This document shows, piece after piece, positions 3,279-52,394 of a stretch of DNA of 64,000 nucleotides. The notes beneath the pieces were generated by a model that did no database searches, had not been told where the DNA came from, and saw only the letters and a program-made list of their open reading frames with translations. The position numbers and the translations under genes are program-made. The stretch is from contig WPIO01000010.1 of the NCBI GenBank assembly GCA_009760855.2, positions 4,044,001-4,108,000 of the forward strand, written 5' to 3'. Within the stretch, counting starts at the first letter, position 1. Each line of letters starts with the position of its first letter. Source of the stretch: Cristatella mucedo. Taxonomy: Eukaryota; Bryozoa; Phylactolaemata; Cristatellidae.

Positions 3279-3482
3279 TCACTTTGTATCAGTGCGTGAG
3301 ATTAGGTCCACTAGCTTTGGACCTTGATGAGAAACCTTGAGAACACGGAGACCTAGATCGTTGAACTTGCAAGTGCCGGCATCGATGCGCCTAGAGTTGC
3401 TCAGATGTCTCTTCCAGCCGTTGATAACATCAATTATGGGCGAACCATCGAGAGTTCCATCATCCAGCTTCCCTGCAAGTCC
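3279..3482 (-). CDS. Alpha-catenin-like exon 27: C-terminal tail and stop
   Basis: Acceptor CATCTTGCAG, with a second AG nine bases on in the same phase; stop TGA at 3,279. 67 codons. [13 protein letters not shown] resembles alpha-catenin LNLPAVSWKMK, and the end [18 protein letters not shown] resembles KKHVNPVQALSEFKAMDSI. This supports alpha-catenin over vinculin, whose tail is shorter and ends differently. Confidence 0.72.
   Translation of the reverse strand, partial: GLAGKLDDGTLDGSPIIDVINGWKRHLSNSRRIDAGTCKFNDLGLRVLKVSHQGPKLVDLISRTDTK

Positions 3483-52394: not shown

Follow-up and report, generated by a model that had tools for sequence, protein, structure and literature searches.

The window analysed here is a 64,000-nucleotide stretch of the Cristatella mucedo genome, located on contig C11 of a 572-Mb assembly with 688 contigs. 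Exon chaining predicts a vinculin-family gene across the window, with all relevant exons on the minus strand and ends at 52394 and 3279. The neighbouring gene, ZNF598-like, also lies on the minus strand (56335-58638); it has a 767-residue open frame with a PAH domain (6.4e-18), and a C2H2-type finger below the Pfam cut-off is found further up the same gene (60313-60720, minus strand). No tRNA and no Rfam family at gathering score were detected in the window.

Several repeats lie among the exons. About 15 copies of the 7-base unit GGTTTAG, the plant-type telomere motif, occupy 27962-28069 in an intron of the vinculin-family gene. Arrays of a 23-base minisatellite (AGCAGGCCTGCGATACAGTGGTC and variants) are found at 29245-29479 and 30345-30516, near the start of the intron between exons M6 and X1. 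Open pieces at about 32500-35000 on the minus strand resemble parts of a gypsy-type protease and integrase, although a Pfam scan of one of them was negative. On the plus strand, 10986-12693 holds two related open frames, belonging to a repeat that is also present in the C144 stretch described below. These frames resemble the end of a LINE reverse transcriptase, although the one frame scanned had no Pfam hit.

Exon chain and its reading

The chaining program combines codon bias with splice-site scores and was seeded with open segments that resemble the family or look helical. It was not given the coordinates of an earlier, sequence-only reading of this DNA, though the analyst had read them. The first, seeded run ended at an acceptor at 52394 and a stop at 3279, identical to the ends in that reading. 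When the program was run twice more, using an independent codon table, most of the inner exons were retained and the ends differed (start 53466, ends 2702 and 2519), so the earlier ends were recovered in the seeded run only. The three distinct program chains had 1,767, 1,680 and 1,371 codons, and in two of the three the translation passes an internal stop codon formed where two exons join. The final exon list was curated by hand, with boundaries that are partly free choices, and exons M2 (40859-40745) and T1b (7132-7032) were added in this way. The earlier description of a long chain in one frame therefore stands as a long, mostly phase-consistent chain, without every splice phase matching.

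Three loci elsewhere in the genome are used for comparison in the exon lists. A whole-genome search with the Pfam Vinculin model found two other loci, C430 and C332. By tblastn, C430 is the alpha-catenin (six of the seven lowest-E pieces are 66-96% identical to human and one is 50%), and C332 is the conserved vinculin of this genome, which the window gene is not. One intron of the C430 gene carries a strong coding-like chain (43.6 in 5 kb) and possibly holds a nested gene. The third locus, C144, carries a paralogue of the window gene. The exons of the head and of the D3-D4 body are as follows.

N1, 52160..52394, minus strand: possible first head helices (D1-like); start at 52394 or 52312, unsure
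N2, 50229..50396, minus strand: head exon without significant homology; acceptor 4.6, donor 6.6
N3, 48316..48440, minus strand: head exon; aligned to C144 57431-57309; 3' end inferred
N4, 47900..48100, minus strand: exon before D3; aligned to C144 57141-56953
N6, 43904..44214, minus strand: precedes the D3 core; conserved part 43921-44148
M1, 43594..43795, minus strand: D3 (alpha-catenin M) helix; donor 43630 or 43594
M2, 40745..40859, minus strand: D3 helix
M3, 31752..31961, minus strand: end of D3 with HW motif; acceptor 31961 (phase 1)
M5, 31417..31626, minus strand: first half of D4 (M-III); preceding intron phase 1
M6, 30650..30991, minus strand: second half of D4 and a disordered-looking linker

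Of the head exons, N1 is an open frame with splice sites that is not significant against family sequences, and N1 and N2 alone fell below 5 of 100 shuffles with none of five family sequences. The codon score of N4 is 0.31, with 0.27 for its next best frame. The C144 paralogue is the sole source of support for N3, N4 and N6. Aligned to vinculin D1, the N exons reached S48 (p 16/300), compared with S40 for the reversed sequence.

The D3/D4 exons, which correspond to alpha-catenin M, gave z 13.5 with human vinculin (VCL, S128) and z 10.2 with CTNNA1 (S143). M1 alone had z 8.4 to CTNNA1 and 6.2 to VCL, and the longer version of M3, which begins at 32001, had 8.4 and 6.4, respectively. The M3 acceptor was moved to 31961 after M2 was found, since 31961 (phase 1) fits M2; the donor of M3 is poor, with a score of only -0.3. 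M5 was derived from the sequence near 31.7 kb together with the splice options, and is joined to M3 by a phase-1 intron. A look-alike exon at 31729 was rejected because it would leave a 22-base intron, while 31626 fits a conserved intron. This intron is the column 511, phase 1 position common to C430 and C332, where it falls between DFLAVS and E in alpha-catenin and between GFIEAT and E in vinculin. M5-M6 matched VCL 749-795 with z 3.6 (1/100 shuffles). M6 has two donors, 30809 (6.0) and 30650 (6.2), both in phase 1.

The tail exons are listed next. T1b came from a profile exon aligner, which places a family profile (human CTNNA1, VCL and CTNNAL1 plus C430 and C332) on genomic DNA and allows for introns.

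T1, 8032..8166, minus strand: tail helix 1, carries the family Trp
T1b, 7032..7132, minus strand: tail helices 2-3; from the profile exon aligner, gap-free after T1
T2, 4972..5074, minus strand: tail helix 4; paralogue exon C144 20490-20382, 8/36 identical
T3, 4780..4866, minus strand: tail helix 5; paralogue exon C144 20255-20169, 10/29 identical
T4, 3279..3482, minus strand: C-terminal extension and stop; C144 19164-19021, E 7.7e-4

T1, T1b, T2 and T3 align to vinculin chain residues 905-1049, which completes the five-helix actin-binding tail; the tail of the window gene is thus a complete predicted F-actin-binding domain. T1-T3 scored S153 (z 16.9) against vinculin and S107 (z 9.1) against alpha-catenin. 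Among single exons, T1 had z 12.5 to CTNNA1 and 6.2 to VCL, and T3 had z 7.2 to VCL. T4 was not chosen as the end in the later runs with the independent codon table. Two conserved actin-contact positions were inspected: alpha-catenin I792 is replaced by V, a conservative change, and V796 by A, a softened one. Both positions touch actin in alpha-catenin as well as in metavinculin (PMC7588232). The sequence-only reading had both ends of the protein aligning block by block with alpha-catenin; an alignment of this kind was obtained at the tail end, where vinculin scored best, and the N-terminal end by itself gave no significant one.

Summing the hand-curated exons gives an estimated protein of 1,350-1,650 residues, with the first exon not located. 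Since the closest relative is vinculin, vinculin (1,066 residues) is the yardstick, and the excess is about 1.4-fold. The earlier figure of about 1,650 residues is at the upper end of this range, and the near doubling of the family size described with it is too high a measure of the excess.

Family placement and the C144 paralogue

The Pfam Vinculin check (PF01044) that had been proposed gave clear matches. A 388-residue core, with M2 and without M6, scored 5.5e-28 (98.2 bits against a curated cut-off of 38.1), and a refined 411-residue core scored 1.3e-24. The first crude joined protein had already reached 2.6e-15 in three stretches (56.3 bits). In the genome-wide exon search with the same model, no window exon appeared at E 1e-3, so the single exons are weak.

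Maximum-likelihood trees placed the window protein beside vinculin. In a seven-sequence tree under LG, the window protein and the C144 protein pair at 99.6/100, and the pair joins VCL and C332 at 96.9/98; under WAG the values are 99.5/100 and 96.1/98. A six-sequence tree without C144 also joins the window protein to VCL and C332 (98.1/99). These trees are small, and for the larger one the window protein guided the reconstruction of the C144 protein. The window protein lies outside VCL and C332 on a long branch of 0.98 or 0.92 substitutions per site, depending on the model, and in neither tree does it group with the alpha-catenins or with catulin. Over the core, identity is 23% with vinculin, 22% with alpha-catenin and 12% with catulin. 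The intron before T1 fits this placement: its acceptor is in phase 0, 12 residues before the Trp (column 654), the same as in the C332 vinculin, and no such intron was found in the C430 alpha-catenin. The three tail introns that follow, compared by hand, match neither gene, although an alpha-catenin intron with identical phase lies 2 residues away from one of them. The alignments, trees and intron position show the window gene to be a divergent predicted member of the vinculin family, sister to vinculin.

The gene had been described as alpha-catenin-like, and two observations favour that description. The D3/M exons score higher with CTNNA1 than with VCL, though their z is lower, and the best PDB match of the first crude model was catenin alpha-1 (1.5e-5). 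Once the tail was completed, however, the best PDB match of the 411-residue core was vinculin 1st6 (3.9e-13, 52.5 bits, against 46.6 bits for catenin alpha-1). The trees, the column 654 intron and the separate conserved alpha-catenin at C430 also speak against it, and we consider a true alpha-catenin-like protein very improbable. Nothing we found supports the accompanying idea of a lever between cadherin and actin. Catulin was rejected as well, on tree placement and because catulin-like exons lie on C221. That locus matches human catulin in colinear order at residues 28-49, 141-174, 174-243, 316-360 and 480-522; only 141-174 and 174-242 are below 1e-3 (6.6e-8 and 2.9e-4), and the rest have E 0.02-0.11. 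With an alpha-catenin, a vinculin and a catulin-like locus all found elsewhere in the genome, the window gene is a fourth kind.

The paralogue was found by a genome search with the core, which matched C144:730402-730524 (51% identical over 41 residues). Within 90 kb of C144, on the minus strand, N6, M1, M2, M3, M5, T1, T2-T3 and T4 have matches in order. The strongest are M1 (50524-50411, 55% identity over 38 residues, E 1.2e-6), N6 (52034-51801, E 1.5e-5 by tblastn) and M2 (48568-48485, 50% over 28 residues, E 4.6e-5). M3 (45% over 29, E 0.009), M5 (53% over 19, E 0.33), T1 (38% over 29, E 0.064 or 0.008) and T2-T3 (one match, E 0.15) are weaker, and because of the high E of some exons, several of these matches rest on order and not on their own scores. 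For M6, the comparison with C144 gave nothing significant (p 0.52). The whole-chain alignment to C144 scored 120.6, compared with 51.0 for the other strand and 53.3 for the reversed protein, and the N1-N5 chain scored 38.8, compared with 17.3 and 17.4 in controls. The two proteins are 29% identical over 337 aligned residues, a figure that may be raised by the use of the window protein as a template for the C144 one. The C144 gene model is incomplete; in the sequence that can be matched, exon order is largely conserved between the predicted window gene and its paralogue.

Block X between D4 and the tail

Nine putative exons separate M6 (D4) from T1 (tail). Together they are here called block X, which spans 26.6-13.4 kb and comprises about 560-650 codons.

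X1, 26335..26593, minus strand: first X exon, 5' end unsure; donor 6.4
X2, 24044..24176, minus strand: acceptor 4.9, donor 5.0, phases fit
X3, 23751..23861, minus strand: C144 counterpart LCDDCLKPYLTYSNKIVNAA, p 9e-4
X4, 19655..19886, minus strand: predicted antiparallel two-helix hairpin; acceptor 6.0, donor 6.0
X5, 15171..15382, minus strand: C144 match at 39106, p 0.005
X6, 14628..14996, minus strand: open; acceptor 4.3, donor 3.3; neither of two pieces significant in C144
X7, 14241..14457, minus strand: C144 counterpart IDSAINGVCRPLHEL, p 0.018
X8, 13632..13970, minus strand: Ala-rich; supported by codon score; neither of two pieces significant in C144
X9, 13399..13521, minus strand: acceptor 6.9; donor 13399, 13424 or 13473

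For eight of the nine exons the frame used in the chain has the highest codon score, on a par with that of the certain exons, and for X9 it ties with a reverse frame. The codon table for this test came from C430 and C332 only, and competing frames were charged for their stops. With the strongest usable splice sites, phases agree at six of the eight inner junctions; the X5-X6 and X7-X8 junctions need weaker sites. X5, for example, has an in-phase donor at 15171 (2.3) and an out-of-phase one at 15239 (5.6). Both borders of the block (M6-X1 and X9-T1) also need sites other than the strongest. The in-phase acceptors of X1 score only 1.3-2.0, and the strongest (3.2) is out of phase. For X9, the donor at 13424 (phase 0, 2.7) fits T1, while the strongest, at 13399 (phase 1, 5.2), does not.

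The coding-chain score of block X was 84.6, compared with 17.5 on the other strand. Four control introns scored 0.7, 2.1, 3.6 and 10.8, one of which (43.5-32.1 kb) holds exon M2, and a sixth control intron was mostly masked. Per 10 kb, the 37.7 of block X is exceeded by the fifth intron, from alpha-catenin (86.8), and slightly by the two training genes when read in antisense (42.9 and 43.2). The coding-chain score is therefore suggestive only.

In the comparison with C144, three of 11 X pieces (from X3, X5 and X7) match the M5-T1 interval, with strand and order both as expected. The Fisher p is 0.0017, compared with 0.48 for the other strand, where none of the 11 reached p 0.05. The pieces were split and trimmed by the analyst after the whole-chain C144 alignment had been seen. 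The other eight have no significant match in C144; the best match of X2, at 42573, is in order and not significant (p 0.58), and X4 has none (p 0.63). With codon bias off, the X chain scored 96.7 against C144, above all of 24 shuffles (mean 84.6, sd 3.8, max 91.6), the other strand (81.5) and the reversed chain (77.9). At the C332 vinculin the same setting also placed X just above its eight shuffles (106.0 vs 93.9-104.3), which counts against this evidence. A stricter setting, which rewards codon bias, did not separate X from the other strand (28.9 vs 28.4); six other controls gave 16.2-21.5 at this setting, and four vinculin or alpha-catenin stretches gave 29.1-63.7. Taken together, that X is coding and part of the same predicted transcript is supported but not proven.

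Significant similarity of X to the family was not found. X has no Pfam Vinculin hit, and its scores with family profiles are within controls (18.7 vs 13.4-25.3 in eight, and 16.8 vs 12.5-20.5 in seven). Among the VCL domains, D3 was best for both X1-X4 (p 11/300) and X5-X9 (p 7/300). The reversed sequence scored nearly the same (50 vs 51 for X1-X4 and 54 vs 61 for X5-X9), so the resemblance to vinculin D3 noted by eye for X2-X4 and X7-X9 is only a hint. A genome search with X found the window itself, with a best other E of 0.43, and when homologs were sought with the crude model of the whole protein, none of the 7,981 candidates scored had E<=1. From its single sequence, AlphaFold2 folds X4 into a pair of long helices that run antiparallel (pLDDT 84). 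Foldseek found nothing below E 0.59 for X4, and no vinculin was among the best 50 of 260 matches. The AlphaFold2 prediction for X8, helical at low confidence (pLDDT 53), is uninformative.

One gene or two, and the vinculin family

The reading we favour, and think probable, is a divergent vinculin paralogue, one of two together with C144, with a D3-D4 body and a five-helix tail, between which block X of about 560-650 residues would be spliced in frame. The alternative that comes closest in gene-model score is a pair of neighbouring genes, one (52.4-30 kb) with the vinculin head but no tail and the next (about 26.4-3.3 kb) with X and the actin-binding tail. One gene scored 429.2 and two genes 262.3 + 160.2 = 422.5, nearly equal, in chains that leave out M2, X3 and T4. 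A usable ATG at 26375 would serve the second gene, and the weakness of the in-phase X1 acceptors, with the strongest one out of phase with M6, also speaks for it. Against this, head and tail together make up one family protein with no overlap, and C144 has its exons in matching order, with X-like ones in the corresponding place, though one transcript is not thereby shown. We regard two genes as unlikely. It is also conceivable that the gene is vinculin-like and of ordinary length, with X skipped or belonging to an unrelated gene nested in a large intron, as X is not recognisably vinculin and one alpha-catenin intron likewise carries a strong coding-like chain. The splice sites bear on this directly: the strong M6 donors are in phase 1 and the best T1 acceptor is in phase 0, so a direct M6-T1 join is out of frame unless the weak in-phase donor at 30591 (1.3) is used. 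In addition, the model score drops from 429.2 to 354.6, by about 75 units, when X is disallowed, and the colinear X matches in C144 also speak against it. This explanation seems to us quite improbable. Finally, the fast evolution seen in the long branch, the poor M3 donor and a GC3 below that of the vinculin and alpha-catenin exons in 22 of 23 exons examined could suggest a decaying pseudogene. However, the core exons are open, splice sites other than the M3 donor score above zero, and the C144 paralogue still keeps most exons at only 29% identity, which leaves a pseudogene hardly credible.

Under the favoured reading of a single gene, vinculin, which anchors cell contacts to the actin cytoskeleton, is the natural comparison. 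Vinculin has a short proline-rich linker between D4 and the tail, and metavinculin has a 68-residue insert in this linker. The window gene resembles them in its D3-D4 body, its five-helix tail, the place and phase of a tail intron and its position in the tree, and, as with metavinculin, its extra material would lie in the D4-tail linker. It differs in the size of X, several hundred residues, and in a core that is only 23% identical. In the exon chain we saw no long proline-rich linker, only short PPP stretches in X1 and X6. With the alpha-catenins (CTNNA1-3, hmp-1) the gene shares the superfamily, the D3/M exons and the column 511 phase 1 intron, but it lies elsewhere in the tree, and the genome has its own alpha-catenin. 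Alpha-catulin (CTNNAL1) is more distant, at 12% identity and with a locus of its own. C144 is alike in exon order where this can be matched and in its X3-, X5- and X7-like exons, and unlike in M6 and the eight X pieces without a significant match.

The window protein may act as an actin anchor, with its head bound to a partner and its tail to F-actin. Block X, which would be mostly helical, would take the place of vinculin's short proline-rich linker, lengthen the link, and alter both head-tail closure and the load path. A more specific and rather doubtful possibility, offered tentatively, is that the gene represents a fourth animal clade, sister to vinculin and duplicated in this lineage, in which two additional vinculin-type, D3-like domains of seven helices each, placed after D4 and before the tail, extend the rod to give a natural long-rod actin linker. 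A literature search returned no matching vinculin-family insertion, paralogue or extended linker, though this does not prove that none exists. One phylogenetic study divides the animal vinculin superfamily into three clades: alpha-catenin, vinculin and alpha-catulin (PMC3141441). If true, a fourth clade would be added to these, with a link from body to tail several times as long as vinculin's. Such a clade would be a natural experiment on how linker length affects autoinhibition and the transfer of force to actin.
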